The notes below the pieces were generated by a model. The model saw only the letters and a list, made by a program, of their open reading frames with translations, was not told the origin of the DNA and searched no databases. A stretch of DNA of 64,000 bases from Heterobilharzia americana. Lineage: Eukaryota; Platyhelminthes; Trematoda; Strigeidida; Schistosomatidae. The position numbers were made by a program, and so were the translations under genes. This document shows positions 10,066-47,575 of this stretch, in pieces. Positions within the stretch are counted from its first letter, which is position 1. Each line of letters opens with the position of its first letter. The DNA lies in the NCBI GenBank assembly GCA_944470555.2, contig OX104127.1, positions 41,653,934 to 41,717,933 of the forward strand. The letters are read 5' to 3'.

Positions 10066-10711
10066 AATGCAGCTCCCTTCACCTATCTAGGCAGCACTGT
10101 TTCAACTACAGGCAACACAGGCACAGACGAGGATGTCAAAGTCAGAATCGGAAAAGCAAGATAGGCGTTCATTATCCTGAAACCAGTGTGGAGATCTTCT
10201 GCACTCAGTATGCAGAACGAGATACGGATTTTCAACACCAACGTCAAGTCAGTGCTTCTGTATAGTTCAGAGACTTGGCGCGTTGCGAAAGCATTTCCAA
10301 CAAACTACAGATATTCATCAACAACTGCATACGCTGGCTCGTTACTGAAGATCAGATGGCCAGAAAGAATAAGCAACAAGGAACTCTGGGAGCGAACCAA
10401 CCAAGAACCTATCACCCAACAAATATGCAGAGGAAGGAGGTGGAGATGGATTGGGCATACATTGAGAAGGCCGATTGGTGACATCACGCGCCAGGCCAGG
10501 CACTCGAGTGGAACGCCGATGGGAAGCGACTAGTTGGGCAACTGAGGAGAGGGTGACGTGGAGATCGTGCGAGGAGGAAATGAGAGCTTTTGGGCTGTCG
10601 TGGAGCCAGGTTCAAAAGATTTCAGAGAAGATAGTGGAATGGAGAAGTGCTACTAAGGCCCTATGTTCCATTAGGAGCCCAAAGGACAAATAATAATAAT
10701 AATATTAATAA
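10066..10711 (+). mobile_element. RTE-type LINE 3' fragment, copy 2
   Basis: A 5'-truncated RTE copy of about 0.65 kb. It encodes the region after the reverse transcriptase core: YLGSTVSTTGNTGTDEDVK, then [20 protein letters not shown], then the [17 protein letters not shown] and [11 protein letters not shown] motifs typical of RTE C-termini. It ends in CAAATAATAATAATA. Frameshifts are present and it is not functional. Confidence 0.88.
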
Positions 10712-11626
10712 TTTAAAAAAAAACTTTTGCTGAGAAGTTTTCATTAGTTCCGATTCATTTCATTCAGTGTTTGTAGTCTACCCTATTTCCATTAAACAAC
10801 TTTGAGAACTAGTGACCCTTTTAAGTGACCAACAAATGTTTTATCATAGGTTAGTCAAACACTGGTTCAGATGATATAATTTTCTCATTTAGAATGTGTG
10901 GTTTATTAGCTGAAGACAACTTGATGAAGCACTAAATTGTAATCCCATCTTCGCTTAGGAATTGTTTACTTACTCTAGTAAGCTATTCAAAATCTCAAAC
11001 TATTGCATAATTTGCGACATGCGAATCTCAGGAAAATTTTGATGATGTTTATACTGATTTGGGTGTTGCTTTTCAGGCTGTGTACAGTTTACATAGTGGT
11101 CATTATCTGGAGTAAAATTCTTCCCTCTTAATAGTCTATGCTTGGTTAGTAAGTTGAATTAATCTGTTGGCAAAATCTAGTAATATATTCAACTAATTCA
11201 GATATTTATGCACAGTTGTGTACTAAAACTATTTACTAACATTACTTTCGTTTTGCTAGTCTACTTATCGGTGTATGATAGTTTTTCTTTTTCCTACAAA
11301 AGTTGATTGGTAATCTATCCTGTTTTTTTATACAGCGTCAATCCTAATCATATATGAATTGTTATTTACTCACTGGAAAATATAGTACGTTTGAATTGCT
11401 TAAACAGTTATTAATACTGAAACATTGAACAACTATCAATCAACTTTGGAGATTTGCAGATATATATATATATATCCTATATTAAGTGTACTGTAGTCCA
11501 AAAGTTTTAAGGACATACAGGAAATACTCAACCCATGCATCTGTTTATAATTTCAAGGTTACTTTATCGTACTGAAGATGCGGCTATAAGAGTATCATTA
11601 AAACAAAATAATATTATTAAATAAAT
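10712..11626. other. AT-rich stretch without recognised feature
   Basis: A short TA run lies at about 11460-11475. Nothing else recognised. Confidence 0.4.
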
Positions 11627-21300: not shown

Positions 21301-24300
21301 CTTGCTTGATTCTGTACTTCAGCTGCACGAAGATTTGCTTCTAAATTATTACATGCTGACTGAATATTGCCTATATATCGACTAAATTCTGTACGAGTCT
21401 GTAAGTTAAATAAGAGAAGAGACAATGATAAAAGATATGCATTGAATCGCTTTCTAATGTAAATTACTTGAAGAATATTTTTTTAGTGCTACTCTGTTGA
21501 ATAAAGCTATTCAGTATGATAATAAAAACAATCGTATAACATTCTGATCCTATATGAGATCTTGGGCGCATAATGTCTTATATTAACTGAAGAGTAACTG
21601 ATTCCAAGCTGAATTATGCTACGCACACTCGAATTCTACTTCACTTCCGATTGATAATTGATTTTTACAAAACATTTATCTGTCTAACACGAAAACATTA
21701 TGAAAATTAAACTTAGTAGTATAATCTTGTTAGTTCTCAGGTAATTAACAAACACAAGTGATTCAAGAGTATCAGATGTAATCAGTTTTAACAAATGGTG
21801 ACCAATGTTTCTAATTCCTTCTCGATAAAATTAGAGTTTTACTGTACTATTGGGTATTTGTTCACATAGGAACATGTGAGAGTTATGTTATGCTGCAAGA
21901 ATAAGATAGTGAGAATATTAAAGAGTATTAACACCTAAGACTTTATGAATAATTTCAGTATTTTGACTATGCAGACTTCAGATTCGATGATTACAGAGGA
22001 TACATATATACTGTATCCCAACTTCGTTCCGATATCTATAAACACTAGTGATATTTATCTTATTTTCGGTATCCATTAGCAATAGGAATTGACTATCAAG
22101 ATAATGAAAAGTCGAACTCATGATAGGAGAATTCACATCAACAACTACTATTCTTTAGTTAAATTCTCAGACAAAAAAAATAGTAATATGTACTTTTAAA
22201 ATTCTGTTTAGATAAACAAGTAGAGTATTTTAACCTGCAGAAAATAATTATTGAAAGTGAACGATGAAAAAATGGGAAGTTAAATTCTGATCCTATACAT
22301 TATCAGTTCTTTTCATGTGTATATGAAGCTTAAATCTGGTGGGAAAACTGTATATCAATCATTATACTACTAAAAGGGATAGATAATTGAACAGTTAAGG
22401 GATTAGTATGTTCAGATAAGGTAACTTCAGGCGATAACTTCTAAACATTTGAATTTAGTTGCCTAATATTGTTTTTGCTCATATTTCAGATCATTACATA
22501 ATTTCTGTTCCCATCTTAAAATGACTGCGGAGAATGACAAAATAAATCTATAAATATGGAAACTGACTAGCGTGTTGTTTACATATGATGATTGGCATCA
22601 CCAGGGAACTATGTGATCTCTTCATGACTGAAAGAAAATATCTAGGTCATAAGAGGGTCGCTCCAGTATTGTTAACCTGGATTTATTTATGACATTAAAG
22701 TAACAACAGTTATTCAGTATTTGATGAAGTCGGCCCAGTCATTTATGCTAACTAGCCATGAAATTTTCCTACCGTTAGCTAAGGCTTAAAGGATATCAAA
22801 CTACTGTTGTCTTTCGTTAGTGTTAGGTAGTTGGAGGTGAGTCTCTGGGAAGACCCAATTAATGTAAAGTCACATGCTTTTCCACAGTCGTCTAAAACCT
22901 TGATGGAACTGATTTCTCTTCACAGATTCCAATATCCTTCACTCAGTGTTACAGTTAGAGACTTTACCCTTGAGTTATTTAGGCTGTGACTGACCTCATG
23001 TCTTAGAACTAAACAATATGGACTTGGTTACTGTCTAATAACTGATCAATGCATCTTATTAAGTCCTGGTTGGAATAACTCAGTGATAACATTTCTATCT
23101 GCAGCATTGGGAGACACGTTTAGGATTGTTTAATGAGATATCAGATCCACCAAGTAACAAATTCAGCCTCCTTCCGATTGTCTACAACCACCTAATGCCA
23201 ACCGAAGTACATGGTGATGGTGAGCCTGTTAAGTTTTGTAGTCAGTTTGCACAATGGTAGACAGAATTCGGTCAGCGCTTAGGAAAAGACAAAGCAACTA
23301 GTGAATACAATATCATCTCCATTCTGCTGTTGCTAAATTCTAGAAGTCTTAATCGATGACTTATTATGACAATTGAAGGAGACTAGTGTTGATGAAAATT
23401 TTTGTTTCCATGTAACATAGCGTGTAATATATTTTATATAGTGTATAAAACAGGTACCAAGCATTACGTTGATTTTGAAATGAAACAAGAAATGCATGAA
23501 TCTTGGAAATATTGAAATCAACAGCATCTTAGGAATGAAATGAATTTCAAAGTTTGTAATGTTCATTACAGTCTTCAGAATTCAAGTTTTCTTTTCGAAA
23601 ATCCTCATATATCATTGTTTGTACTATGTGCTTTATATATTTTCTTGTACATTTATCTTAGTATTTATTCAGGCTAGGACCTGAAGTTTGTTACTAACAG
23701 GGAATGAAATATCGCCTTTCGAATCTAATACTTGATATCACAGTTAAATGCTACCATGGGATGACTAACAACAGTATCTGGACGTCATCACAGAGGATTC
23801 ATCAGCAAAAAATCGATCATTTAGACCGGATAAAATCTACGAAAGGGTAGATAAAGACATCTGCTGGGTTATATGCTTCCATTTAACACGAATTCATAAT
23901 TTTTTTCAAAACTGAAGTATATAATATATTTCAAGCATAATACCAAGTTAGGTTTTTACTTCTGGAGGAATATTATTAACACAAAAAATGAACAGCCTAG
24001 GGTCTTTTCTATGCAACGTTTTGAAAATGAGTGATGTTATATGAAAGTTTCTATGTGGCCAAAGAATGATATATGCAGCAGGCATTTTCAAAAGATTCAA
24101 CTATCGCGAAGTCCTATTATTATTGATGTTAAAGGAAGTCGACATCTAATGGAATGCAATATATTAACCGATTATAGCTGGAATAGTGTAGAATCAATTG
24201 ATAGGTATCTTTTATCGACATTCCTTTCTACTTTCCCAATAGTTTCATCTTCTGTAATTCACTGTACCAAGTAATAGTGTTTGAGGAACAAGATATATAT

Positions 24301-27300
24301 ATATATATATGTGTTAAATGAAAGTGAGACTACAATTTATCAGAAAATATCCGTTTTACAAGAGGGTTAAATTGTTCCAGTAGCTAATGAACAATAAATC
24401 TGCATCATTTCAAGTTGTTACTCATCGCAGACTGACATCAGTTGGAGGAACAAAGGAAACCTGGGAGCACTGGACAGCTGTTTCGTCCTAGTATGGGACT
24501 CCTCAGCAGTGTGCACCCACGACCCCACCAGCAGGGATCGAACCCGCGACCTTCAGAAGTTGGAAATATGGAGCATTGGATTCTGACCCAGTGGCTCAAT
24601 GGTAACGCGCTGGTCGCGGAACCTGAAGGTAGCGGGTTCGATCCCTGCCGGTGGGGTCGTAGGTGCGCACTGCTGAGGAGTCCCATACTAGGACGAAACA
24701 GCTGTCCAGTGCTCCCAGGTTTCCTTTGTTCCTCCAACTGATGTCAGTCTACGATTAATAACAACTTGAAATAATTCCAAATCTCCACAACTCCCTCAAA
24801 ATCTGCATCGGTTATAAACGGTTTCGAAAACTTTATTGAATGTTTAATAATAGTCAGCAGATAGTTGTTTCACTCAAATTCTACTTACCTGATTATATTT
24901 AAACTAACAGTTATCCACGACCTCAAGCTTAATCTTTTCCCGTGTAACAGTCAAATAGCCATTAAGTATGTCATATTTGTTTTATCACATATGTACGATG
25001 ACGAATGAGGGTAAATTGTAAATTTAAGTCGCCGCAGAATTAAAACCATCGGCCTTCTGATTACTGTCTTGGTGGTGTACTAACTTAGCTATGACACCCA
25101 GCTACCTACCAGTTCCTGATTTCATTTATATCACCAAAAGTCTTTCTTGTCATGACTCAGGTTTTATTACAGTATTATATATATATAGCATACTGCTTAA
25201 ATCGCCTTAAATGAAAGGTATTTCATGCGTATTCAGGTGAGCTGTCTACATTGTGTAAATGGTGCCTATATGTATAAGAAATAAGATGAACCCATCTTTC
25301 CAGCCACTGTACCGGTCTATGTCACATGAAGAAACATTATGTTGGTCAACAATACAGCAGTATTCTGGAGCACGAATAAAATCTTCTCCTATGGTGAGGG
25401 TCGTTTACTTCGTAGTTTTATTAATCAAACAAATTGGTGATATAATCATTGTTTTACAGAACGCTTCTAAAAGTTTATAAGAATTCCTAAGGTTTTTCAT
25501 CCGTTTAGCTTTCTGATTGCCTTTCATGATATTCTGGCAGAGAAGATCCTTAATTTGCTAAGTGTTTTATTGGTGACGTTTAGGAAAATAGACATGATGT
25601 AATCTTCAGTTTACTTCAAGAAAATTTTTATCAGGGTTCGTAATTGTAGTGATTTCAAATATTTTACAGGTTTAACTTTGAAGCAACTATCATGGCATTC
25701 TATACATGATCTTTTCAAACAAGTCATAGCTAACGGGAATGGAATCATAAATAAACAGCCTAACTTTCTCTCTAAACTGTAGTCAGAAATGAAATAAAAA
25801 CATAGGATAGCCAGTTTGTTTGCAGTAAAAACTATTACTTTACTTTCAAGCTACTGTGAGTTGAAGGTGCTCATAAACTACTGATAAAAGTGTAAACATT
25901 CTGGTTATTAATTTTTGGTGATTAATTTATAATACTGGATAAAGTATTTTCATACCAAACTAAACATTATTGTTTTCAAACGTTTTCATGATTCAGTGCT
26001 GCGAAGTTTCCTACTAGGATGAAACGGTTTTTCAGTACTCCTTGCCTTCCTCTTATTTTATGTTTCATGTCAGCTGTGAAAAGGATTCTTCTAGAAGATA
26101 ATTAGTCTACCACCAAATTTCCAGGATAAATTTCTTTCTTTTGTTCACCCCTGTATGAATGATCTATGGATAGGTGGACATCTATCAATGTGTCACGCAT
26201 ATCTAAACCACCTTGTCAACAGTAGCAGAAAGACAAATAAGGCAGAGAACATTTGCTTATTTTTATTATTATTTGTCCCTTGGGTTCCTAGTGGAGCATA
26301 GGGATTTAGTTGCACATCGCCATTGCACTCTCTTCTCTGCAGTCTTTTCAACCTCGCTCCACCACAGCCCACAAACTTTCATTTCGTCCTCACACCATCT
26401 CCTCCATATCATCCTTGCCTCAGACGCCCAACTCGTCGTTTTCCATTTCGGTTCCAATCGACGGCCTGACCTGGCGCCTGATTTCCCCAATAGGTCTTCT
26501 CAGTATATGCCCAATCCAATCCATCTCCACTTTCTTCATCTGCATATTTATTGAGCGATAGGTTGTTGATTGGTTCGTTGACAGCCAGCCAGAGTGCCTT
26601 CTTGCTTATTCCAGTTATTCTGGCCACCTGATCTTCAGTATCGAGCAAGTGTAGGCAGCAGTTGTTGATGGATGTCTTTAGTTTGTTGGAAATGCTTTTC
26701 ATAAAGCGCCAAATCTCTCAATCACTAAATTGATTGAATTAATGTTGAGAATCCGGATCTTGGTCATGCTTTAAGCCGAGTGGAGTGCAGTGAGGTGCAG
26801 TAGATCTCCACACTGGTTTCACATCAATCCAGGAACGCCTGTCTTGCTGTCTTTCCGATCCTGGCTTTCACGTACTCATCTGTGCCTGTAGTTGAGACGA
26901 TGCTGCCTAGGTAGGTAGGTAGGTAGTTAGGTAGGTAGGTAGGAGGAGAGGTGAAGGAGACTACTTCGTGTAGATTCCTTCCGTTTATGCTGATTGCTGC
27001 TTGTTGTTGTTGTTGGTTGGTTGGTTGGCTGGTCGGTTGGATATCTTCATCACCTCTCTCTTCTCTACGTTCACCTGAAGAAAGTCCCGTCTTCGCTGCC
27101 CTGCCCTGCCCCGCCCCGCCCCGCCTCTTCTGCCAATTTGTTAGTTTCCGTCTCTAGGTCTTCGAGTTTGTGCGACAAGACACTAGACATAAATCATCAT
27201 CGACAAAATCGAAATCTTCTTCTGGGGTCTTTTCATCGGTCCAGACAGCGTATGCGCCTCTTCTCGCTCCTCACAGTTTGTTGTATGATCCAGTCGAGTC

Positions 27301-30300
27301 GACCACAATCAGGAAGATGATCGGTGATGGTATGTAACCTTTTCTTACTCCTGTCTTCACTTCAATGGTATCACTGAGCTTTCGGCTGTGAATTGCTTGG
27401 CATGTAGCATCATATAGTGTAGCATATAGCTGTCGAATGAGGTTGATAAAGGTTTTTGGTATTCGGTAGTGTTGAAGCAGCAGCTGCCAAATTACTTCTC
27501 AGCTGACGATCTCGAAGGTCTTTTCACAATCGATGAAGTTGAGAACATTTGAGACTGAGACTAAAAGGCTGAAATTCTACTGCTGAGAAGGATCATTTCA
27601 AGCGTTTCAACTGGAAATGCCAATACAGTATAATGTACGCTTTTATAACAATTACATCTTGGTGTTCATTTCACTATTTCACTTTAATGATAGGTAAAAG
27701 GTTTCAAAATGAAGGTTAAACATTATAAAAAGACTGAACGTATGCCAGATATATGTATATCTCATGATTTGAAATTAACAAACGCAATAACATTGTAATT
27801 TTATCATATTCTAAAAACAAAAATGGTTCACTTTTAACTAGTAGGGAGATTTTCTTTTCCAAACTCAGTATAACTTACATTAGTCAAATCTTTATCAGTT
27901 TGTTGTCTTAAATCGGCAAATTGACGTCGAAGGGCGACTACAGCTCTCCATAGGGATAATAAACGATTGTGTTCAGCAGCGAAATAATCATTAAATGCAC
28001 TTTCTTCTTCACGCCATTCTGATTCACGTTTATCTAATTGTTGTGCTGCATGTCTCCATGCTAAAGTTAAACGTGCTACATCTTGACTTAAACCTTGATT
28101 AGCTTGTACAGCTTGTTCTAATTGATCACGGAGTAATTCATTCGCACGGGACAATTCATTTGATCTATTCAAAAGATATTAGAATATGCATACTCATACA
28201 TCGACCTACTTTTATAAGTAATAGAAACTGACAGTATTTTATTACTATAAAAGCATCGGAGAGCGAAAATCAAACAAAAATTGCTTACCTATTTTACAGT
28301 ATGTTATATTCATTGCACGACAATGTATAGGAGAGTGTGATTAAATATTAGTGCAGTAAGATAGAATATAATATGCACTAACTTTGAATACATAGAAAAA
28401 TTTCATTTTAAACAGCAAGTTGCTAAATTATGTGCACAAGGATTATATATATGTAGATGCGAAATTGAATTACCACTTGGTTTTAAGCATTTCGACGTAG
28501 CAACTTGGAGTTATACTCAAGTCAAATAGATAGTCAAAGTAGTCGACTAGGGTCGATAAGAATAAGAGAGTATAAAAACTGCTAAATCAAGGTTAGTGGA
28601 TCCTAATAAGACAAGAAATCTGGAGAAAAGCTCGGCTATATCTCTGCAAGTAATTATACACAATCAAACAGAAGGGTGAGATAAAGCGACAGTGTTAAAA
28701 ACTAACTTAGTTGGGTGGAGGGAGAGATTGATGATCGAGTCTTTGTTTATCAAATCAACGCCAAATACATGCAGTGGTAGGAATGATTCTTCACCTGTCC
28801 AAAATCTATGGAAAATTCTACTACCCTTGTCATAACAGAGGAGAGAAAATTAGGGGTATATAAAGGATATCCCAAAGTTGTGGAGTTACCTGATATGAAT
28901 ATGGACAGTAAAGTATGTCCGAAACGTTATCCAATAAATGATACTGTTTCACTAAACAGACTAAAATGAAATTACAATCTATCACAGTGCCCAAGTTTTA
29001 CTCCTATATTAATATCCCAGTAATGCAGGATAAAACTTTGAGATAAGCAAAGAGGTCAGTATATGCGATAGCTTGTGTCAACATTTTTGAACGATGTACT
29101 ACAACATATCATTCTTACATTTGACTAATAAGAAACGCATTCCGAAGATGGTTGGTAGGTTCTAAGTTTTGTTATTGTTTAGAATTAATAGGAGTAACCA
29201 GTCCATCTAGAAGTTTTCCTGAGAAATCAGTGGAAAAAATAACGTCAATTGTTGTTACTTCGGTTTAAAAAGTCTATGTTAGTCATCACAAAGTTGTATG
29301 ATATCAAAAATATATCGTTCAGCACAACAGCATACATGATTAGTCAGATATCATTACAAGACTCTTATATTATTTTAATCAAACATTATCTTTAAGCTAA
29401 ATAAGATGATAAGTGTTGCACTGAAGCTGATGAGCTTTTGAGAACTTAACAACGAAATTTCATCTAAGTGTGGTTATTATTCGGAAGCATTTTTTCTGAT
29501 ATCATAAAACATCACATATTAAAAGCACGCAAAGAAGATTTTTGTGGAGATAATTGTATAATTCCAGAATACACCAAGTTGTTTTATTCACTGACTTGGC
29601 TTTTTGACATAGTATTTCATCTTTTCATTGCTTGTACGATTAATAAATATTACAGCTGGACAGCTGAAATTAGTCCTAATCTATTACTAATGAATGTTCT
29701 CAAGTACACTATTTACGGACCGACTGATTTTCTGAATCACTAGTTTTTTGTTATTAACATTTATTGACATACTTGTTATTCTCCGTTGTTTTGTTCGATC
29801 GAATTGTTTGAGCCCCTTTGCGGATGCTTCGATACTGTCCGAATGTTAATTATGATAATTTCGGTCGGTTATGGCTAGTAGAAGAATCCATGAAGCGCAT
29901 TTCGTCCTATTTAGGACTCATCAGCTGGATTCACCTGCACCCCAGTGATGTTGTTCCCACTGAAACTAGAACCTCGCACCCATCGCTTCAAACGCCAAGG
30001 CGTTATCCACTATGCCACAGAGGAATGATAGCCACTTCTTGTACAACGGGTACTAGTTATTACTATTTATTGACATACTTGTTATTCTCCGTTGTTTTGT
30101 TGGATCGAATTGTTCGACCTATGTTGGCATATGGGCCCCTATGCGGATACCTCGATATTGCCTGAATGTTAATTATGATAATTTCGGTTGGTTGTGGCAT
30201 CCTAGATTCTTCTGCTAGCTACAACCAACCAAAATTATCACTAGTTTTGTTATCTAAACATTTTTATTACTCAGAAGTAATGGGATATATAAAATTATTC

Positions 30301-33300: not shown

Positions 33301-35712
33301 TATATGCTAAAAACGTAGGATTGAAGTTAGTTTCGAAAAATCAGTTTTTGTGACTGATGAGAAATTTTCTTACCCAGATTTAGGTTATCCCATTCAGTAT
33401 TTGCGAAACCATTTACTTTCCTGGAAGTATGTAAGTGCTATTTACTAACTTTTGTTGATTTTTGAACGTTTCAGTAGAATCCTTTGGAAGAACTAAATTT
33501 ATGTATAACGGTCAATATTGATTTAGTTCTAAACCATAATGTCTAATCTAAATAAAACATGGAAAGCAAATCCAGTTAAGACTACTCACACATGTGTTAT
33601 ACCTCTTGTTCGAAGCCAAGTGATATCATCTGACTTTCGAAACCTAAACAAGAGTAGTGTGGTCTAAACACTAGTTGGTTAAGGAACGCTTACTCACTCT
33701 TATAACCTAGAGCTTCGAAATGCATTTAAATACTTCTGTTTCATATTTATCAGCAAGAAAGAGAATGATAGATTCGACATCAATGGAAAGAACTTAGGAA
33801 TAGACAGCTTCATTGGTTACCCATTGGTGAATGATTCGTGTGCATAATCCAGTCATATAGGCAGTCATTCATGGTCTGAACAGCTCAGTGGTTAAGTTTT
33901 TGTCTTGTGCACTGAGTGACAAAGGTTCAAACCGCCAAGGGAACATCACTTTCCTTTTCTTTACCGATGCCTTCGGTTGATGAGTACCAAGAAGCATGAA
34001 ACCTAGGTTTAGGACTTCTTCAGGATTAAACTCAAACATCTGACACCGAAATGGTGGTTACTGTTGATCTGATTTTCGACTATGATGCTGTTCTGATGAA
34101 ATAAATCTTATTTTGGCTACTCAAAATGAATATAGCAACCTATCTACTTTTTTAACAACTTATTAGTTCCAATCCTCAATCTTCTCATCCTAATCCAAAT
34201 CGATTTAAGATAAGTTGGAAACAGAAAGTCAGTTCATAATGGTCTTATTATCAGTATTCCACCAGAATATTTGGTTTTCCGAAAAGGATCCTATATAATT
34301 TTCATTTATGTACCAAAAAGTTCCAAAGGATGTTCTTTCTAACAAACTTTTTAACCATTTTCATTCCTATGTTCTTTCTTGTTTGTAACTGAATCGTATT
34401 CAGTGCAGATATCTCCCATTTCATACTTGATATAGAGAGCTAAATCTAGTATATTGGAACCCTCAAAATATTTACACTGTTTGATTTACGAAAAAAATCC
34501 CCGTTTGATCATTGGAAAACAAAGAGAGGTTAGATAAAGGTAGATAATCAATCTTAATCAATCTTTAGGAAATAAAATGATATTACGTAACATAAGATAT
34601 AATCCCATTAGTTTTATAAAACACAGTGAATGGTAAGATTTGGTACCTGCTAAAATAAATCAATAAAACTATAATAAAAGATAAATAAATAAATGAAATA
34701 GAAAATAAAATATAAACAGTAGTGCAGAGTACCTGATCAAGGTCATGGTAAAGAAAGTGCAGGTACATATTTCTTTTGGATAGACTGTTAAATTTTTGAG
34801 GCTGTGAATTACCAAAGCTTCAGCTATACATAAGTGTCTAATCCTCACCTCTTTTGAACGGTTTTGGTCAAACTTTTTATTACATAGTATCATTTCATTC
34901 ATTCCTTATATACACTTATTGATTAAGTTTGACATATAGCCAGAAACTTCTCCAGAACATCCCATTATTTTACCTATATGTTTCGTAATGTACACCCCTG
35001 TGAAACTGAATCATCGAAACATCAATTATCTTCAAAGTAACCTCTTTTTGTTTTTCAATTTATATTAATTTACTATTGTGATTAGAATGAATGAGATTGA
35101 CTACAAAAATGAAATTATTCTCAAGACAAGAATCTCATGGAATAGATCTCTCACTACAACTTTTTTCAACTTCTCAAAACGAAAAATAATTATCTTAAAA
35201 GCAATTACATAATCTAATCCCATTGTAATCTGGGTAAGCTTCATCTATATAAATACTATGGAATCTTAACTTAGAAAATGCTTTCATTTGACCACTATTT
35301 ATTTTTACCCCAATTTAACTTCATTGTTTTTATTCTGTCAGTCACTTTTGGTGTATATTTATGTAATTAATATACTAACCTTTGCCTGTAACTTCTGTAT
35401 AAGTTGTGCTTGTTTTTGTTGTCCATCTTGATAACTTGATAACTTTTTTTTATAATTTGATATTTCTGCTTCATATCGTGCCTTGATATGATTAATTGTT
35501 TCCTCTGTATCAGTTGATTGAAGTTGATTGATGAATGGTGAATTTTTCTCAGATATATTAATATGACCTTCATCTGGTGCACACACTGCTACTGGTGATA
35601 ATGGACAATATAAGGCCTCTAATTGTGATGAATCCATTCCGGCCATTTGAAAGAAACCATCCAAACTAATTTCTTCATCTGGATTCATAGTGACTGTTAA
35701 CTCTTTGTTATC
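16671..35712 (-). CDS. CROCC: Rootletin (ciliary rootlet coiled-coil protein), N-terminal part, seven exons
   Basis: Spliced minus-strand gene. Exons in coding order: 35712-35380, 33109-33026, 30460-30333, 28164-27879, 21398-21150, 18847-18578, 17012-16671 (333, 84, 128, 286, 249, 270 and 342 nt; 1692 nt, 564 codons). All introns fit GT/AG and all phases join without a stop. Rootletin is the main filament-forming protein of the ciliary rootlet, which anchors cilia at the basal body. The match to human CROCC as I recall it is strong and collinear: SYQDGQQKQAQLIQKLQAK against AYQEGQQRQAQLVQRLQGK, then QYKKRSSDLE, EEQQR, and a block around EHNRLLSLWRAVVALRRQF against EHSRLLLLWRQVVGFRRLV. The last exon corresponds to roughly human residue 550 of about 2000. 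Missing: the extreme N-terminus and most of the coiled-coil rod. Introns of 2-6.5 kb hold SINE, RTE and PLE insertions. Confidence 0.93.
17013..18229. other. Rootletin intron, no other feature recognised
   Basis: AT-rich intron sequence upstream of the TA microsatellite. Nothing else supported. Confidence 0.5.
18230..18308. repeat. TA dinucleotide microsatellite
   Basis: Uninterrupted TA run of about 79 bases within the intron between rootletin exons 6 and 7. Its length is probably variable between individuals. Confidence 0.97.
18578..18847 (-). CDS. CROCC: Rootletin exon 6 of those seen (90 codons)
   Basis: Acceptor AAAAAAG before CTTGCTGAAAGG, donor GTAATA, phase 0-0. Begins LAERDRILTTMKQLH, then a basic stretch (RRSSNTFKRGKR) and an acidic stretch (EPSTDDEDDH), then a helix ending HHALSQIAQ. 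Human rootletin has a matching acidic break followed by a DLAQAVLSDSE-type helix. The acceptor has a weak pyrimidine tract, so the 5' border could be off by a few codons. Confidence 0.85.
19131..19745. mobile_element. Sm-alpha-like SINE: fold-back plus head-to-tail insertion with 13-bp TSD
   Basis: A perfect 13-bp duplication ATTAACTTACATT (19131-19143 and 19733-19745) brackets one 589-bp insertion. Inside, a minus part (19144-19380; tail then ribozyme) is followed by a plus tail (about 19385-19510) and then a plus unit with tRNA-like head and ribozyme (about 19550-19732). The plus tail running into a new plus head means two units head-to-tail. Minus ribozyme (about 19283-19330): CTGACGA and GAA boxes kept, but the cleavage triplet is GTG and stem II is weakened. 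Plus ribozyme (about 19645-19710): GAA mutated to GAG. Both are probably inactive now. Confidence 0.9.
20063..21076 (-). mobile_element. RTE-type LINE fragment with 12-bp TSD, copy 4
   Basis: Insertion 20075-21064 bracketed by TCTCACAACTGT (20063-20074 and 21065-21076). The minus strand encodes, in three overlapping frames, VKTGVKQGCLLSP-type sequence (here KTGVKQGCLLSPMIFLIVVD), the catalytic [40 protein letters not shown], and the [11 protein letters not shown] and [11 protein letters not shown] motifs. The tail is (TAA)n at 20075-20090. 5'-truncated; frameshifts separate the blocks. It lies in the rootletin intron, in the same orientation as the gene. Confidence 0.93.
21150..21398 (-). CDS. 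CROCC: Rootletin exon 5 of those seen (83 codons)
   Basis: Acceptor TTTAACTTACAG, donor GTATGG, phase 0-0. Coiled coil rich in A, E, Q and T (for example RLTEAETKLTEAMTAKERLA). An RTE copy inserted in the intron ends 74-86 bases downstream of its splice donor side. Confidence 0.9.
21399..24396. other. Rootletin intron, no feature recognised
   Basis: AT-rich; short open frames at 23333-23566 and 24041-24274 show no motif. A short TA run at about 24293-24310. Confidence 0.45.
24467..24512 (-). ncRNA. Hammerhead ribozyme, second SINE family (intact core)
   Basis: Minus strand: CACTG (stem I), CTGAGGA, GTCC/GGAC stem II with loop CATACTA, GAA, the self-complementary ACAGCTGT as stem III, cleavage after C in GTC, then CAGTG closing stem I. 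All invariant core bases are present; position 7 is G, which is allowed. Confidence 0.88.
24667..24712 (+). ncRNA. Hammerhead ribozyme, second SINE family (best copy)
   Basis: Plus strand: GCACTG (24667-24672) pairs with CAGTGC (24707-24712) as stem I; CTGAGGA 24673-24679; stem II GTCC (24680-24683) with GGAC (24691-24694); GAA 24695-24697; stem III ACAGCTGT 24698-24705; cleavage expected after C24706. The stem III palindrome is only 8 nt, so folding may favour a dimer, as known for schistosome Sm-alpha ribozymes. Confidence 0.92.
24800..25950 (+). repeat. 1.15-kb segment present again, inverted, at 40.5-41.65 kb
   Basis: This flank of the SINE at 24.4 kb recurs on the opposite strand at about 40487-41653 with only scattered differences by eye. 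It includes an identical 73-codon open frame (25259-25480) except one residue. It also includes a tRNA-like block (minus, about 25046-25125) and a 12-base TA run that is about 43 bases in the other copy. No coding function is recognised; the shared frame more likely reflects recent copying than selection. Confidence 0.95.
25046..25125 (-). other. tRNA-like block (decayed SINE head)
   Basis: Minus strand reads GTAGCTGGGTGTCATAGCTAAGTTAGTACA, resembling a D-arm/A-box, followed 35 bases later by GATGGTTTTAATTCTG, resembling a T-arm/B-box. The copy at about 41345-41425 (plus) keeps GGTTTGAATTC. No proper acceptor stem, so not a tRNA gene. Confidence 0.5.
25985..26070 (+). mobile_element. Old second-family SINE fragment
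   Basis: CAGTGCTGCGAAGTTTCC, TACTAGGATGAAACGG and TTCAGTACTCCTTG follow the ribozyme-to-tail order of the second family with many changes. The ribozyme is dead. Confidence 0.6.
26245..27551 (-). mobile_element. RTE-type LINE fragment with 11-bp TSD, copy 5
   Basis: GAGAACATTTG at 26245-26255 and 27541-27551 brackets a 1285-bp insertion. The minus strand ends in GGGACAAATAATAATAAAAATAAG. It encodes broken pieces of the RTE reverse transcriptase C-terminus (DDDLCLVS-type box, KLEDLETETNKLAEEA, LDTEDQVARITGISKKALW). It contains the GGTA run (26908-26943) and the CCCCG run (27100-27127) shared with copies 1 and 3. Inserted in the rootletin intron just downstream of exon 4. Confidence 0.9.
27552..27878. 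other. Rootletin intron between RTE copy and exon 4
   Basis: AT-rich, nothing recognised apart from the splice donor region at its upper end. Confidence 0.5.
27879..28164 (-). CDS. CROCC: Rootletin exon 4 of those seen, most conserved block
   Basis: Acceptor TTTTGAATAG, donor GTAAGT; one base then 95 codons. It carries the signature segment of the rootletin N-terminal domain: ANELLRDQLEQAVQANQGLS, KRESEWREEESAFNDYF, and EHNRLLSLWRAVVALRRQFA, ending DKDLTN. This is the exon that identifies the gene most securely. Confidence 0.95.
28165..29735. other. Rootletin intron, no feature recognised
   Basis: AT-rich. A 91-codon plus-strand frame at 29468-29743 runs up to the SINE insertion but has no recognisable motif or splice context. 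Confidence 0.45.
29736..30248 (-). mobile_element. Sm-alpha-like SINE: fold-back plus head-to-tail insertion with 12-bp TSD
   Basis: ATCACTAGTTTT (29736-29747 and 30237-30248) brackets a 489-bp insertion. Read on the minus strand: a short inverted piece starting near the ribozyme cleavage point (about 30198-30236), a tail (about 30197-30080), then a full unit with tRNA-like head (about 30045-29960), ribozyme and tail (to 29748). The tail-then-full-unit order implies a multimer. Located in the rootletin intron, about 85 bases below exon 3. Confidence 0.92.
29886..29930 (-). ncRNA. Hammerhead ribozyme, Sm-alpha type (nearly intact)
   Basis: Minus strand ATCCAG, CTGATGA, GTCC/GGAC stem II with TAAATA loop, GAA, ATGCGCTT as minimal stem III, cleavage triplet TTC, and ATGGAT closing stem I. 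One mismatch at the base of stem I and one in stem III; activity is uncertain. Confidence 0.8.
30333..30460 (-). CDS. CROCC: Rootletin exon 3 of those seen
   Basis: Acceptor TTTTCTAACAG, donor GTGAGT. 128 nt, begins in phase 0 and ends two bases into an arginine codon completed by the next exon. Coiled coil with many E, R and T; ends in KLHEEQQ before the split arginine, matching EEEQQR of human rootletin. Confidence 0.9.
30461..31969. other. Rootletin intron, no feature recognised
   Basis: AT-rich; a short ATG trinucleotide run near 30740-30765. No other repeat or coding block recognised. Confidence 0.45.
31970..32520 (+). mobile_element. RTE-type LINE 3' fragment, copy 6
   Basis: Plus strand encodes PVKSVLLYGSETRLV, the NKELTLGTNQPR region out of frame, [20 protein letters not shown], and ends GGAACCCAAGGATAAAATAA then (TAA)n. 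5'-truncated, about 0.55 kb, opposite to the rootletin gene. Confidence 0.87.
32521..32700 (-). other. Possible exon or retroposed gene fragment, unknown
   Basis: A minus-strand open frame of about 65 codons, richer in GC than its surroundings, reads MLFTNRTDLGKFTKGDTLFF and then a cysteine-containing, N-glycosylation-like stretch (CEGNVFINITDY). It begins after a stop, and an AG with a mild pyrimidine tract lies at its start. It abuts the (TAA)n tail of RTE copy 6. I do not recognise the protein. It could be a nested exon, a pseudogene scrap or chance. Confidence 0.25.
33026..33109 (-). CDS. CROCC: Rootletin exon 2 of those seen (28 codons)
   Basis: Acceptor TTACCAG, donor GTGAGC, phase 0 at both ends. 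Encodes VMQYKKRSSDLEFEVEQLKA and eight more coiled-coil residues. It continues the human order, where QLQGK is followed by ILQYKKRCSELEQQL. Such a short exon is invisible without the neighbours, but the match fixes it. Confidence 0.9.
33110..33870. other. Rootletin intron, no feature recognised
   Basis: AT-rich intron between exon 2 and a tRNA-derived repeat. Confidence 0.45.
33878..34110 (+). mobile_element. tRNA-derived repeat with hammerhead-like remnant
   Basis: ACAGCTCAGTGGTTAAG (A-box-like) and AAAGGTTCAAACCG (B-box) are spaced as in a tRNA head. About 50 bases on comes TTGATGAGTAC, then CATGAAACCTAGGTTTAGG, which resembles the CTGATGA and GAAA-plus-palindrome order of a hammerhead. 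Stem I does not pair and C3 is T, so a working ribozyme is not supported. Confidence 0.5.
34111..35379. other. Rootletin intron, no feature recognised
   Basis: AT-rich; nothing supported. Confidence 0.45.
35380..35712 (-). CDS. CROCC: Rootletin exon 1 of those seen (111 codons)
   Basis: Preceded on the minus strand by a T-rich tract and AG, and followed by GTTAGT. The frame is open from the acceptor (DNKELTVT before the methionine at 35688). It may therefore be an internal exon, or methionine 9 may be the start with the bases before it non-coding. The first half is acidic with a hydrophobic patch (DGFFQMAGM); the second half is coiled coil ending in QLIQKLQAK. Human rootletin has further N-terminal sequence before this point, which favours an internal exon. 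Confidence 0.88.
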
Positions 35713-37384: not shown

Positions 37385-38240
37385 TGTGAGATGGGCAGTA
37401 AGATTTTCCATAAGTCCGGAACAGGTGCTGAGTCACTCCTGCTGCTGTATGTGTTAGGTGTTGATTCGATAAACAAAGATTCAGTTATCAACCTCTCCTT
37501 TCACTCTGTTATGTTAGTTTTAATGATTTTCACCTTGTCCTATCCTATTGTGTGGTTGTGTGTAATCGCATGCATAGCTATGGCTGAGCTTTTTTCTAAA
37601 TTATTTACCTTACTGGGATCTTCCAATATTGACCTGGCTAGGTTTTTGTGTTCCAATAACCTAATTGACCCTGGTCGACTACTTTGACCTATGTATTTGA
37701 CTTCAAAATCGTCGCAAGGGATTTGGTAAACTAACTTATTCTGTTTGATTGGCTCAATAGGATCTTTTAACCTACAAAGCCTATTTCGAAGTGAGTTTGT
37801 AGGTTTAAATGCCACTGTAATCCCAGCCTTATTGGGAATTCTACGTAGTGTTTCTGAGGTGCCTTCTTTGTATGGTATGCTTCAAGCCATAAGAGTTAGT
37901 AAGTCTTGATTTAGAACGGTTTCTAATTGGGTTTGGTACCGTTGCTAAATATTTAGATAAGTCATACGTAGGAGTGTTTCTAAACTCCATTATAGGTCTT
38001 ATAGGATAACTTGGTTTATGAATTTTAGTAGTACCATAAATCCTGCTGGGATTAATAGTTTTCAGCGTTAAACTAACAAAGTAAGACTTCTTTGAATATC
38101 TTCGTTGTTTCATAAATCACAGCCAACTTGATTGTTAAAAGGAGTACAAATACTTGATGGCCGATTATTACCTGATCTGGACTCATCTATTTATACAGGA
38201 GTTGAATGAAAATGCGTTATCTTACAACAGCCACTTCAGT
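37385..38240 (-). pseudogene. Penelope-like element remnant: RT start joined to GIY-YIG end
   Basis: Minus strand 38113-37850 encodes GTTKIHKPSYPIRPIMEFRN and TYDLSKYLATV, the N-terminal reverse transcriptase blocks of PLEs. Then, with the catalytic RT core deleted, 37815-37540 encodes the C-terminal GIY-YIG endonuclease: KLVYQIPCDDFEVKYIGQSS, then an EH box and LEKSSAIAMHAITHNHTI. The CxxC of the PLE GIY-YIG domain is damaged (CDDF). Frameshifted and non-functional. Confidence 0.85.
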
Positions 38241-40307: not shown

Positions 40308-40414
40308 AGCCAATTCTTAGTTAAATTTTGAGGGAGTTGTGGAGATTTGGAATTATTTCAAGTTGTCATTCATCGTAGACTGACATCAGTTGGAGGAACA
40401 AAGGAAACCTGGGA

Positions 40415-40460
40415 GCACTGGACAGCTGTTTCGTCCTAGTATGGGACTCCTCAGCAGTGT
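40415..40460 (-). ncRNA. Hammerhead ribozyme, second SINE family (intact core)
   Basis: Same core as the copy at 24467-24512: CTGAGGA, GTCC/GGAC, GAA, ACAGCTGT, GTC cleavage triplet, CACTG/CAGTG stem I. Confidence 0.88.
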
Positions 40461-41238
40461 GCACCCACGACCCCCCCAAATACTTTATCCAGTATTATAA
40501 ATTAATCACCAAAAATTAATAACCAGAATGTTTACACTTTTATCAGTAGTTTATGAGCACCTTCAACTCACAGTAGCTTGAAAGTAAAGTAATAGTTTTT
40601 ACTGCAAACAAACGGGCTATCTTATGTTTTTATTTCATTTCTGACTACAGTTTAGAGAGAACGTTAGGCTGTTTATTTATGATTCCATTCCCGTTAGCTA
40701 TGACTTGTTTGAAAAGATCATGTATAGAATGCCATGATAGTTGCTTCAAAGTTAAACCTGTAAAATATTTGAAATCACTACAATTACGAACCCTGATAAA
40801 AATTTTCTTGAAGTAAACTGAAGATTACATCATGTCTATTTTCCTAAACGTCACCAATAAAACACTTAGCAAATTAAGGATATTCTCTGCCAGAATATCA
40901 TGAAAGACAATCATAAAGCTAAACGGATGAAAAACCTTAGGAATTCTTATAAACTTTTAGAAGCGTTCTGTAAAACAATGATTATATCACCAATTTGTTT
41001 GATTGATAAAACTACAAAGTAAACGACCCTCACCATAGGAGAAGATTTTATTCGTGCTCCAGAATACTGCTGTATTGTTGACCAACACAATGTTTCTTCA
41101 TGTGACATAGACCGGTACAGTGGCTGGAAAGATGGGTTCATCTTATTTCTTATACATATGGGCACCATTTACACAATGTAGACAGCTCACCTGAATACGC
41201 ATGGAATACCTTTCATTTAGGGCGATTTAAGCAGTATG

Positions 41239-41240
<2 letters not shown>

Positions 41241-41283
<43 letters not shown>
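41241..41283. repeat. AT microsatellite inside transduced copy
   Basis: About 43 bases of alternating AT, against 12 bases in the parent segment at 25176-25187. Confidence 0.95.
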
Positions 41284-41286
<3 letters not shown>

Positions 41287-42173
41287 CTGTAATGAAACCT
41301 GAGTCATGACAAGAAAGACTTTTGGTGATTTAAATGAAATCAGGAACTGGTAGGTAGCTGGGTGTCGTAGCTAAGTTAGTACACCACCAAGACAGTAATC
41401 AGAAGGCCGATGGTTTGAATTCTGCGGCGACTCAAATTTACAATTTACCCTCATTCGTCATCAGACATATGTGATAAAAACAAATATGACATACTTAATG
41501 GCTATTTGACTGTTACACGGGAAAGGATTAAGCTTGAGGTCGTGGATAACTGTTAGTTTAAATATAATCAGGTAAGTAGAATTTGAGTGAAACAACTATC
41601 TGTTGACTATTATTAAACATTCAATAAAGTTTTCGCAACCGTTTATAACCGATGCAGATTTTGAGGGAGTTGTGGAGATTTGGAATTATTTCAAGTTGTT
41701 ATTAATCGTAGACTGACATCAGTTGGAGGAACAAAGGAAACCTGGGAGCACTGGGCGGCACTGGACACCACGAAGCAGCTATCCAGTGCTCCCAGGTTTC
41801 CTTTGTTCCTCCAACTGATGTCATTCTACGATGAATAACAACATGAAATAATTCCAAATCTCCACAACTCCCTCAAAATTTAATTGAACTGGTGCTCATT
41901 GGTGACTAGTTTCGAGAAGTATTCCCCAAGTTCCAATGACAAGTCGTGACTGGTGGAGTCAAAGCCTGATGGCCATGAGGACAAATACTCAGCGATGACA
42001 TTGGGTGGCGGTTGCTCTATATATCGTGAGCTAACAGAAGTTGGAAATATGGAGCATTGGATTGTGACCCAGTGGCTCAATGGTAACGCGCTGAACGCGG
42101 GACCTGGAGGTCGCGGGTTCGATCCCTGCTGGTGGGGTCGTGGGTGCCCACTGCTGAGGAGCCAATTCTTAGT

Positions 42174-43019
42174 GTTTAGAAAATAAATTGTCTCCAATAA
42201 ATTTCTATTGGTTAAGATTTGATTAAGGAAAACAAGTGCAAATTCTTAAATAAGGCGGTCAGTGACTCTTCTTACCCAACACTTTATTATTTAGAAACAG
42301 GTGTAATTTGAAACAGATACAACCGCATACCAGACTATTTTATCAAGGAAACAGAATGTAAATTAGCCAAATGAATGCAAAATAGTGATATTTGACATTA
42401 GATATAGAATCGTATTGTTTGAAATCAAATAATTCCAACGTTGTTTTGCACAGAATTCTAGTCCAAGCTTCTTCAGGGAAATAATCGAAATTAAAATATC
42501 AGGGATATATGGATGAATTCAAAAAACGTGTATTTAATCTCCTTATCTAATCCTCTTTGCATAGTCATTGTCTTCCTAAATTATGATAACTAATCATTTA
42601 GTGTGAAATTGTATGTGGCTTGTTGTATGGCGTATGTACTCCAATTCATAGTCGTCTTGATTGTTAATATCAGACAAAAAGGACGTTGCTGACAGTCATT
42701 CGGTAATTTTATAAGTACAAATTGTAGAAACGATGAGGTGGATGTGTATACAACTTTAGTTGGAATAAAGTGGTGAATAGTGTTAGAGAATTTTCTTTGC
42801 ATTGATTAACCAGAATAGAGTGGAAATGAGTGGTAGTAATGATGGTAGTGATGATGATAGTAATAATGAATCAAATCAGTCCAGGTTGTGTTGTTGTTAG
42901 TGCAGAAATAATGGAGTTGAGACCAGTGTTGATGATAAATGTTTTGAGTCACTCTTTCTGCTTACTAATTAGTAGTTGCCAAGAGGCAGCTAACTGTACT
43001 CTGTCTCGCCTGTTCAAAC
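42174..43019. other. No feature recognised
   Basis: AT-rich, with a GAT/GTA-rich imperfect run near 42828-42880. Confidence 0.4.
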
Positions 43020-44060
43020 TGTCTGGATTTGACCATTTATGAAGGGCTTCGGCTGTCAGTCTTTCTTGGTATGACTCAAAACCTTTTGTAGAACTTTAGT
43101 TCCATCAAAGTCAATTTTTTGTCCCATTTCTATGGAGTGTAGCGTGATGGCGGATTTGTACTCAAGTTTCTTAACCTCTGCTGAAGTTTATGTTCATTGA
43201 CTGTTACATTTACCTGCCTGGCTGTTTCCTCTACATATACTGCAGTACAATTTCTACATTTGATTTCATAGACGCAGTTCTTGTGATTTTCTTTAGGTAC
43301 TACATCCTTAACTTTCACTAAGTTAGAATGTAGGATATTTGTCACACGGGAGTAAACTCTTATGTCGTGTTCGTTGAGAATCCTTCTTATTTCTTCTGAT
43401 CGTGCTTGTCCAATTCTTCGTAGGGAGTTTCGGGACATCCTTAATTTCATTTTTAAAAATACGTCTAATGAAACCTTTGAGATAACTGTTTGCTTCCAGT
43501 GTGCGGCAAACTAATTTTAACTCTTCCTCCTTGTCCTCTTTTGTTGTAACAAGACGGTTAGCCCTGCTAATCAGATTTCGTGCGACAGTTACCTTAGTAG
43601 TCTGATAATCGAGATATGTAGAAGTAGTATTAATCATGGACTGATATCAGTTGGGGAACCATCGAAAATCTAGGAGCACTGGATAGCTGTTTCGTCCTAG
43701 TATGGGATTCCTGAGGAGTACGCACCCACGACCCGGCTAGGGATCGTGGGTGACAGTCGCGGTATGTTATGAACTGACAGAAGTTGGAAATTGTGAACCA
43801 CTGGAAACCGACGCAGTGGCTGAATGATTAACGTGTTCGCCGCGAAACCTGAAAGTCCTGAGTTCTATCCTTAGCCGGGTCGTGGGTGCGTACTGCTGAG
43901 GAGTCCCATAGTAGGACGAAACAGCTGCCCAGTGCTCCCGGGTATTCAATGGTTCCTCAACTTATGTCAGCCCATGATGAATAATAATTCTAAACTAAAA
44001 ATCCTCATTCATCTCAAAAATCGAGATATGTGTCAGAATGTTGTTTTTCTGAAGATCTTA
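43020..44060 (-). pseudogene. Penelope-like element C-terminal fragment, interrupted by a SINE
   Basis: Minus strand 43606-43320 encodes the RT thumb-to-linker region (VARNLISRANRLVTTKEDKE, then after a frameshift RRIGQARSEEIRRILNEHDI). Then follows the GIY-YIG domain, with NCVYEIKCRNCTAVYVEETA where YIGET would be expected, so the catalytic glycine is replaced. A fold-back SINE sits at 43620-44018, with the element's DNA resuming at 44019-44060. Confidence 0.85.
43607..44031. mobile_element. Second-family hammerhead SINE fold-back with 13-bp TSD, inside a PLE
   Basis: AATCGAGATATGT (43607-43619 and 44019-44031) brackets a 399-bp insertion. A minus fragment from tail through ribozyme to the head border (43620-43748) is followed by a plus unit with tRNA-like head, ribozyme and complete tail ending ATTCATCTCAAAA. 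The left ribozyme has CTCAGGA; the right one (43890-43935) keeps CTGAGGA, stem II and GAA, but its cleavage triplet U is C, so neither should cleave. Confidence 0.92.
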
Positions 44061-45600: not shown

Positions 45601-46078
45601 GTTATGTGGGATTAGCGTTATTGCTTGTGTTGCACTGTCGTTGATTGGACCGAATTGATCAGTCTCTGTTGGCATATGGGCTCCTGTGCGGATGCCTCGA
45701 TACTGCTTATGCTTTAATTATGTATGGTAATGATGGGCAGTGGCTAGCAGTGGAATCCAGGCAAAATTGAGGCGTCCGCATAGGAGCCCATATGCCAACA
45801 GAGACTGATCAATTCGGTCCAATCAACAACGGTATGATACAAAAACAATTATACTAAAACTATACCCATCGCACAAGAAGTGGTTATCGTGGCTCGGTGG
45901 TGTAGTGGATAACTCTCTGACGTTTAGAGCGATCGCTTCCGAGTCTGAGTCCCGGTGGGAACAACGTCACTCACTGGGAGGCAGCTACATCCAGCTGACG
46001 AGTCCCAAATAGGACGAAATGCACATCCTGGATTCCACTGCTAGCCACTGCCCATCATTACTATACATGGTTATATGG
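45601..46078 (+). mobile_element. Sm-alpha-like SINE: fold-back plus full unit
   Basis: A minus part (about 45610-45770) is followed by a plus tail (about 45771-45835), then a full plus unit with tRNA-like head (GGTGGTGTAGTGGATAACTC, then GAGTCTGAGTCCCGG) and an intact ribozyme (45989-46033). A candidate TSD, GTTATGTGG (45601-45609) against GTTATATGG (46070-46078), has one mismatch. The layout matches the copies at 19.1 and 29.7 kb. Confidence 0.88.
45989..46033 (+). ncRNA. Hammerhead ribozyme, Sm-alpha type (intact)
   Basis: ATCCAG (stem I 5'), CTGACGA, GTCC/GGAC with CAAATA loop, GAA, ATGCACAT minimal stem III, cleavage after C in ATC at 46027, CTGGAT closing stem I. This is the textbook schistosome hammerhead architecture, with the bulged stem I continuing into TCCACTGC. 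Confidence 0.95.
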
Positions 46079-46189: not shown

Positions 46190-47575
46190 AATATTTTGTA
46201 TTATTCCTCAACGTTTCGATCTTGCTAGAAAGATCCCTTTCAAGAGTATGAATCTGACATTAAGTTTTCAGGTTAACATTCAAGTTTTGGTACAATCATC
46301 CAGTGACATAGTGATATGAAGCAAAGGTCGATGTAATACAGGTGAGTGAATAAGCAACTCAGTCAGAAAGGTTTTTCCGTTGTGAGAGTAAGGTGGAACA
46401 AAAATAGGGTGGGGAAATTTTTTTTACTTCGTCTTTGAAAAGTACAATGGAGTTGTGAGACATCAAGGGTGAGAAAGAATAGATTACCAGTTTGGAAGGG
46501 TGAATATTTGAAGACCAGACAATATATGATAAATAAATAATAATAATAATAATGATAACACTTGAAGTATGAGTGACAACAGAATGGATTATGTTATGGT
46601 TCATCGAATGTATATGACTCAGAAAGTAGCGTAAAATTGATGAAAATAGTAGATCAATAAAGTGCTATGGTAATAGGACTAGACAACCTGTTAAAATGCA
46701 ACCAATATACTTTTTTCCTTTTTCCTAGTGGTTAAGACGATTAAGAGAAATAACACCGGAGACTATTCAAACAAGAATGAATTAGGAATGAATAAATCAT
46801 GTGGAATGAAATTGTGTTCCACCTTCTCTTCCGATATTTATTTACAACTACCTGGGCGAGTCATTAATGTTTGCCACCATCTAAGTGGGATATCTAACCC
46901 ATCTTTTCTGTTGACCGAAGAAGGATATGAACAGATGTGCAAAGCTTCTGTAATGGTCCGCTCTTTGTGAGAAAGAAAACCCTTTTGCAGAACTTTTGTC
47001 TGTTTGAATGATACTTTATGACCTGAATATAGGACATGAGTCACAATAGCAGAGCTTTTTTCAAGTTTTTCTAGATCATAGGAATTTTTCAGTGGCTTCT
47101 TGGAACTTCGACTGTGTTCGGCTAGACGTGTTAGTACTTGACGTGATATCTCTCCAATGTATGTGGCATCGCATTCACTACAGTCTATCCTATAAACACA
47201 GTTTTGTTGTTCCAAATGAGGAATCGGACCTTTGAATTTATACAGGTGTGAGTGTAGTATATTCGTCACCTTAAAGAATACTGTGATGTTGTAACGGTTA
47301 AGGATACGTCTTATTTCCTCTGAAGTGGATGTTCGATAAGGAAGTGCTATAGTACTTATCCAATCTTTATGGCTTGACTTTTTCCTATTTTTATTCGATA
47401 AAATGTTTTCGATTCTTTTTAATAGTCTGTCTGAATAGTTATTTTGTTTTAAGACTTCCCGAACAAGTTGCCTATCTGCTTGCTGAGATTCCACTTTATT
47501 TGGTATCCTTTGTGATCTGGTTGCTTTCATCCAATCCTTCATAATAGTTAGATGCTTTTTAACAAAATTATGTTA
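46190..47575 (-). mobile_element. Penelope-like element 3' part with long open frame
   Basis: Minus strand: coding part 47575-46838 then about 650 bases of 3' sequence ending near a GATCGAAACGTTGAGG motif (46200-46225). That motif is flanked by GATC pairs and resembles the degenerate hammerhead known from PLE terminal repeats. The 5' part, including the RT core, is missing. Confidence 0.85.
46838..47542 (-). CDS. Penelope-like element C-terminus with GIY-YIG endonuclease (uninterrupted 234 codons)
   Basis: Uninterrupted frame covering the end of the RT-linker region (WISTIALPYRTSTSEEIRRI) and a GIY-YIG domain. The signature QNCVYRIDCSECDATYIGEI has both the two CxxC-type cysteines and YIG. 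The RLAEH box gives the conserved arginine and histidine, and ERTITEALHI gives the catalytic glutamate. PLE endonucleases of this kind nick the target DNA. It is 5'-truncated and starts at an internal methionine, so it cannot be a complete element, but the domain is better preserved than in the other PLE remnants here. Confidence 0.85.
   Translation of the reverse strand: MKDWMKATRSQRIPNKVESQQADRQLVREVLKQNNYSDRLLKRIENILSNKNRKKSSHKDWISTIALPYRTSTSEEIRRILNRYNITVFFKVTNILHSHLYKFKGPIPHLEQQNCVYRIDCSECDATYIGEISRQVLTRLAEHSRSSKKPLKNSYDLEKLEKSSAIVTHVLYSGHKVSFKQTKVLQKGFLSHKERTITEALHICSYPSSVNRKDGLDIPLRWWQTLMTRPGSCK

Follow-up and report, generated by a model that had tools for sequence, protein, structure and literature searches.

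A composite ribozyme-SINE insertion in a schistosomatid fluke holds host DNA copied from the flank of a sister element about 15 kb away

How does host DNA come to lie in the middle of a SINE insertion? The question is raised by a locus at 40.3 kb in the 64,000-nucleotide stretch of Heterobilharzia americana DNA analysed here (the window), where two perfect copies of a 14-bp target-site duplication (TSD), AGCCAATTCTTAGT, located by repeat search at 40308-40321 and 42160-42173, enclose a composite of 1,838 bp. This outline agrees with the original prediction, and the TSD sequence occurs nowhere else in the window; in a chance check, 50-nt stretches were drawn at random from the window in 2000 pairs, and 3 of the pairs shared a word of at least 14 nt. 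The SINE unit is about 404 nt long and is numbered from the base after its hammerhead cleavage site, which we take to lie after GUC; the ruler for this numbering was made from two window pieces, mostly from the composite's own inverted unit (41770-42161).

Along the minus strand, in the sense of the SINE's usual 3' end, the right TSD copy is followed by that inverted unit (42161 to 41770, a plus-strand piece), which is nearly complete and circularly permuted, running from unit 391 through 404, 1 and 100 to 378 and sharing an AG with the TSD. Filler of about 15 nt (41754-41769, GCGG CACTGGACA CC, its first base assignable to either side) then marks the head-to-head joint and repeats TGTCCAGTGC, and centred on this joint is a palindrome with 97-nt arms that are 97% complementary and 28 nt apart (perfect over the 30 nt examined). 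Beyond the filler come the 3' part of a donor SINE (41753-41658), the reversed copy of the donor's flank 24803-25948 (41657-40479) and a second SINE piece (40478-40322, unit 347 to 100), which contains a hammerhead (40415-40460, minus strand), has the family's usual 3' end, CTCAAAATTTA[A], and forms the 3' end of the insertion before the left TSD copy. The copied flank is internal, enclosed by two SINE pieces in direct orientation.

The donor, about 15 kb from the recipient, is an element at 24.4 kb with an 11-bp TSD of its own, AAATCTGCATC, at 24396-24406 and 24799-24809. Its inverted arm (24404-24556, minus strand; BLAST bounds, overlapping the TSD by 3 nt) spans unit 321 to 69, and its forward arm (24554-24802, plus strand) runs from unit 252 to 404 and then from 1 to 96, with tRNA-like A- and B-box motifs by eye and a type I hammerhead (24667-24712, plus strand; RF00163, 47.8 bits) whose predicted cleavage falls at 24706^24707. 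The flank that was copied follows at 24803-25949 (plus strand). The original prediction described an inverted copy of 24800-25950; alignment bears out the reversed copy but extends its start about 95 bases upstream, to 24707, with its end at donor position 25948/9. The SINE part of the copy (41658-41753, minus strand) is identical to donor positions 24707-24802 at 96 of 96 sites, including ATTAAT and CTCAAAAT, and the joint made by the donor's TSD, CTCAAAATCTGCATC, is present in both places, as had been claimed. Among six SINE segments compared, ATTAAT occurs only in the 24.4-kb forward arm and in the copy. Across the flank, donor and copy agree at 1124 of 1146 aligned sites, with 22 mismatches (14 of them transitions), a divergence of 1.9%; 32 of the 33 gap columns fall in a (TA)n run, which is much longer in the 40.3-kb copy (41240-41283) than in the donor (about 25173-25190). 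We found no third copy of the donor flank within the window.

Because the 24.4-kb element has its own TSD, its right flank is the native target and the copy is derived. Together, the donor TSD, the TSD-made joint in both places, the private ATTAAT and the 96/96 identity establish that host DNA was copied from 24.4 kb to 40.3 kb, the direction first proposed; the reverse is disfavoured, since the TSD joint would then have to arise twice. The 1.9% divergence is close to that among young SINE segments (2-4 differences in 96 sites once the donor-copy pair is set aside), and it is consistent with a single capture event within the family's recent activity. The second direct SINE piece, compared with the donor over units 1-96, shows 2 differences in 96 sites, carries ATGAAT, and ends in TTTAA where the donor enters CTGCATC, so it came either from a template other than the donor or from a SINE that once lay at 25949.

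The surroundings of the donor bear on which RNA was copied. Rootletin-like exons lie on the minus strand at 27834-28178 (PF15035, 111.3 bits) and, more weakly, at 35359-35712 (PF15035, 23 bits, below the cut-off of 36), and ORF 21129-21482 has no rootletin match. The copied flank is downstream of a rootletin-like exon and probably intronic; the donor SINE is downstream of these exons and antisense to them, possibly within an intron. Since the copied sense is antisense to the exons, a sense read-through RNA would not be the pre-mRNA of the rootletin-like gene. Other repeats occur nearby: at least five related copies lie in both orientations, 7862-9042, 10076-10727, 20074-21063, 26257-27543 and 59749-60926 being among the matches listed, and they belong to a multi-copy repeat that is presumably RTE-like. 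One of these copies contains ORF 59751-60539, which matches proteins of Trichobilharzia and Heterobilharzia. The closest named protein matches of two repeat ORFs in the window, this one (whose best match is an unnamed protein) and the PLE-like 46838-47572 described below, are from these two genera.

What kind of element made the capture? Ten loci of the SINE family lie in the window, and no ORF of an element was seen within these short ribozyme-SINE units. Nine type I hammerheads in the window score above the Rfam gathering threshold; four belong to this family (both arms at 24.4 kb, 40.4 kb and 52.8 kb), and the family's other copies fall below the RF00163 gathering score. The remaining five (235-279, 19291-19335, 19657-19701, 29886-29930 and 45989-46033) form a second family that differs in sequence from the composite's SINEs and that appears to resemble Sm-alpha; within its 19.1-kb copy there is an inverted repeat (19141-19524 aligned with itself at 75%). 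In the composite's family, the folding energies of four hammerhead stretches are ordinary (z from -1.51 to -0.94). The unit has A- and B-box-like motifs, GGTTCGATCCC and TGGCTCAATGG, by eye; the one tRNA that ARAGORN reports, a tRNA-Ser at 42091-42180, extends beyond the TSD and is probably spurious. Stem III of the family's hammerhead lacks a proper loop by eye, and it is described likewise for the minimal hammerhead variants of Penelope-like elements (PLEs) in the accessible parts of two papers (PMC7229834, PMC7761336).

Five of the ten loci are clear head-to-head fold-backs (the composite and those at 11.6, 24.4, 43.6 and 48.3 kb), the 2.6-kb locus is probably another, and those at 51.2, 52.3, 52.7 and 56.5 kb have one orientation. 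Inversion is a habit of the family, as in PLEs, and not peculiar to the 40.3-kb event: four of the nine remaining loci are clear fold-backs too. TSDs measure 11 bp at 24.4 kb, 14 bp at 40.3 kb and 13 bp at 43.6 kb; the remaining seven loci have candidates of 6-8 nt, which for six of them are no better than chance. The 43.6-kb fold-back (43607-44031, TSD AATCGAGATATGT) adjoins an ORF piece on the minus strand, 43130-43510, which looks PLE-like by eye and has no Pfam match above cut-off. Unit-to-unit joints occur at 41.9 kb (in the stretch used for the ruler), 11.6 kb, 2.6 kb (70% identity) and, by eye and with a gap, 48.5 kb. Since such joints are read through at 41.9, 11.6 and 2.6 kb, the SINE templates were probably longer than one unit, or circular; no tandem array of units was seen among the ten loci.

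The element ends point in the same direction as the fold-backs. We aligned 14 family ends, a set that leaves aside the 51.2-kb end (unit 18) and the outer end of the composite's inverted arm (unit 378), which fit neither of the two groups that emerged. Six of the 14 are long ends at unit 96-104 (24.4-kb forward, 96; 48.3-kb forward, 101; 11.6-kb forward, 102; 52.7 kb, 100; 3.1 kb, 104; 40.3 kb, 100, counted from the piece map because the alignment continued to 109 into the TSD), and seven are short ends at unit 49-75 (24.4-kb inverted, 69; 48.3-kb inverted, 68; 11.6-kb inverted, 75; 43.6-kb inverted, 54; 52.3 kb, 54; 2.6 kb, 54; 56.5 kb, 49). The forward end at 43.6 kb scored 58, and by eye the sequence goes on from there as far as the long end. 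Three fold-backs (11.6, 24.4 and 48.3 kb) were scored at both ends; in each, the long end belongs to the forward arm, and the end of the inverted arm lies 27-33 nt earlier. The family can be likened to PLEs because it combines head-to-head fold-backs with TSDs and two groups of ends (27-33 nt apart within those three fold-backs), and the two groups suggest that PLE-type machinery mobilises ribozyme SINEs in schistosomatid flukes. One PLE-like ORF remnant in the window has outside support: 46838-47572 (minus strand) shares 43% identity with a 416-aa protein of Trichobilharzia szidati that carries PF00078, a domain we take to be reverse transcriptase; its GIY-YIG match, at 16.5 bits, is below the cut-off of 22.6, and a PDB search with the fragment gave no match. 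A further remnant at 37540-37881 (minus strand) is similar to it by eye only and has no Pfam match. PLEs have a 'tail' of 31 bp in Adineta vaga (PMC3846280) and of 30-40 bp in general (PMC11167929), as far as the available text of these papers goes.

We therefore favour, at a probability of roughly 55%, a single retrotransposition insertion of the hammerhead-ribozyme SINE (or retrozyme), probably by Penelope-type machinery, in which the 3' flank of a sister copy was captured. The single TSD, the donor-to-recipient direction, the order of the pieces and the different variants of the two direct pieces can be read off the composite; the steps of strand synthesis we infer. With the left target cut as its starting point, first-strand synthesis would have begun near unit 100 of one SINE RNA and proceeded to unit 347. 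The nascent strand would then have switched to a read-through RNA of the 24.4-kb element, entering this RNA at its 3' end (25949) and copying it to its 5' end at 24707, an end probably made by the element's own hammerhead. Finally, the copied strand would have joined a cDNA primed at the other target cut, which supplied the inverted unit. At least two templates, or one SINE-flank-SINE transcript, are needed, because the 3' SINE piece of the insertion lacks the donor's variants.

An RNA-mediated event is the best reading of the composite, and the original idea of a read-through RNA retrotransposed by 3' transduction with inversion holds in part: one composite insertion within one TSD and its direction stand, but the flank is internal and the 3' end is another SINE piece. 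Plain 3' transduction of the L1 type was accordingly rejected, as the flank is followed by a SINE piece and the TSD, with no poly(A). Nor is an ordinary end of the read-through RNA evident at the flank end, whether by polyadenylation or by Pol III termination: the nearest AATAAA/ATTAAA signal is about 150 nt before 25949, and 11 runs of at least four T precede the one at 25947, which led us to set aside a Pol III read-through transcript ending at that TTTT. Two further candidates fell away. Had the block entered an older fold-back as a second, independent insertion, it should have its own TSD, and none is visible by eye at 40478 and 41754; a circular RNA running from one hammerhead to the next does not, as the only template, fit two direct pieces with different variants.

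Did the ribozyme itself define the captured block? Collinearity with the donor begins at 24706/24707, exactly the predicted cleavage site. The chance that a breakpoint falls within 1 nt of that site is 0.007 for a single breakpoint and about 0.11 for at least one of 15 hand-listed breakpoints, a list drawn up without the copy at 2.6 kb and without the inner end of the inverted arm at 48.3 kb, and with one outer end among its entries. Hairpin self-priming could also set this boundary, because the palindrome is centred on the joint and the filler repeats TGTCCAGTGC. The position thus suggests, and does not prove, that the copied block was a ribozyme-cut read-through RNA. The fuller proposition is that the hammerhead-cut 3' product of the SINE's read-through transcript itself served as the template for reverse transcription, that a ribozyme can determine where captured host DNA begins at its 5' end, and that geneless short ribozyme elements can mobilise neighbouring DNA by Penelope-type template jumping; we hold this tentatively, with the odds somewhat against it. 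Counting against a ribozyme-cut template is the PLE tested in vitro, for which hammerhead cleavage was not needed and no RNA ends were seen at its cut (PMC11167929). If true, the proposition would give genomic evidence that hammerhead-processed RNA is used in vivo.

In one rival explanation, the donor allele once had a second SINE at about 25949, and a single SINE-flank-SINE transcript was retrotransposed with no switch between the direct pieces. This accounts for the second piece, its own variants and its 3' end, and Penelope-captured sequences are likewise reported to lie between two terminal repeats in direct orientation (PMC3846280, from the text available); against it, the donor locus in the window sequence has no SINE at 25949, so that the element must have been lost or be polymorphic, and we consider this account unlikely. 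An antisense template, such as the pre-mRNA of the rootletin-like gene, seems to us no better a prospect. Here the inverted cDNA strand would fold back, prime itself at the palindrome and then switch template, which fits the palindrome at the head-to-head joint and the repeated TGTCCAGTGC; rootletin-like exons are on the required strand, if their transcript extends to the donor locus (24-26 kb), and self-priming of PLEs on an antisense template was proposed by Arkhipova et al. (PMC3846280, as far as its accessible text shows). Self-priming alone fails, however, since the direct arm has the variants of the donor and differs from the inverted arm at 3 of 96 sites, and the cleavage-site start is left to chance.

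Repair of a DNA break is harder still to credit. An older fold-back SINE at 40.3 kb would have broken at its palindromic centre and been mended by microhomology-mediated template switching into the 24.4-kb locus, which would explain a block placed at the joint of what otherwise looks like an ordinary fold-back, with short microhomology and filler at the joints. Yet the broken fold-back ends match the block ends over at most about 10 nt in the needed direction (by eye), two switches are required, and the cleavage-site start is unaccounted for. Repeats in both orientations, as in the composite, are liable to misassembly, but an assembly artefact or collapsed haplotypes are very improbable here, as a misjoin would not be expected to leave a perfect TSD, or a copy that has diverged by 1.9% and has a (TA)n run of its own length.

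The composite is thus a donor-resolved capture of host DNA by a ribozyme SINE with Penelope-like structure; capture of this kind has already been reported for Penelope-type retroelements. Leaving aside the rotifer gene, we noticed no capture with a resolved donor locus in the parts surveyed of a mostly open-access literature. Here the donor, the recipient and the breakpoints can be followed at base resolution inside a single window, in elements that measure only about 400 nt, and the case bears both on how a host piece gets between Penelope repeats and on the role of the hammerhead. It also raises a testable question: do captured flanks elsewhere start at hammerhead cleavage sites?

How does this insertion compare with known systems? 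It shares with L1 3' transduction, twin priming and template jumping a read-through flank at a new site, an inverted part, and extra bases and microhomology at the joints, as accessible portions of the literature describe them (PMC6431247, PMC2718515, PMC2912911); unlike L1 events, its flank is internal, poly(A) is absent and the insertion ends in a second element piece. Like Sm-alpha and Sj-alpha of schistosomes, the family is SINE-like with a hammerhead, and the available text of PMC2770079 also describes a tRNA-derived SINE family of S. mansoni as similar to Sm-alpha. Metazoan non-LTR retrozymes (Cervera and de la Pena 2020, PMC7229834, in the parts available) resemble it in their type I hammerhead, a unit of about 400 nt, TSDs of more than 4 bp and unit-to-unit joints as in tandem or circular RNA; retrozymes are recognised by a type I hammerhead in a 150-450-bp unit, and here RF00163 exceeds its gathering score four times in a 404-nt unit. 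The family departs from retrozymes as described there in that about half of the window loci are head-to-head fold-backs and no tandem array is seen.

The closest parallels are with PLEs. For Poseidon of Anolis, the accessible text of Frangieh et al. 2024 (PMC11167929) describes cutting and extension of both target strands and two internal start sites of reverse transcription that match the 30-40-bp 'tail', with the hammerhead cut upstream of them. The 14 SINE ends, mostly in two groups, resemble these two start sites and the 'tail'; in Poseidon the main substrate is unprocessed RNA, with no RNA ends seen at the hammerhead cut, whereas here one captured block starts at that very site. In the host-gene capture by a Penelope element of Adineta vaga (Arkhipova et al. 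2013, PMC3846280), an inverted unit, a direct unit, host DNA and a direct unit lie inside an 8-bp TSD, with an empty allele; the available text also discusses other captured sequences, read-through transcripts and template jumps, and gives host-DNA spacers of 0.9-1.5 kb in another Penelope family, against about 1.1 kb for the flank here. The composite has the same architecture, with host DNA between two direct repeats, one inverted repeat, one TSD and a palindrome at the inverted joint; the exception is the outer end of its inverted arm, which at unit 378 is outside both end groups. What sets it apart from the A. vaga case is that its repeats are short ribozyme-SINE units, that its donor, which has a separate TSD, can be seen about 15 kb away, and that one of its direct repeats starts at the predicted hammerhead cut.
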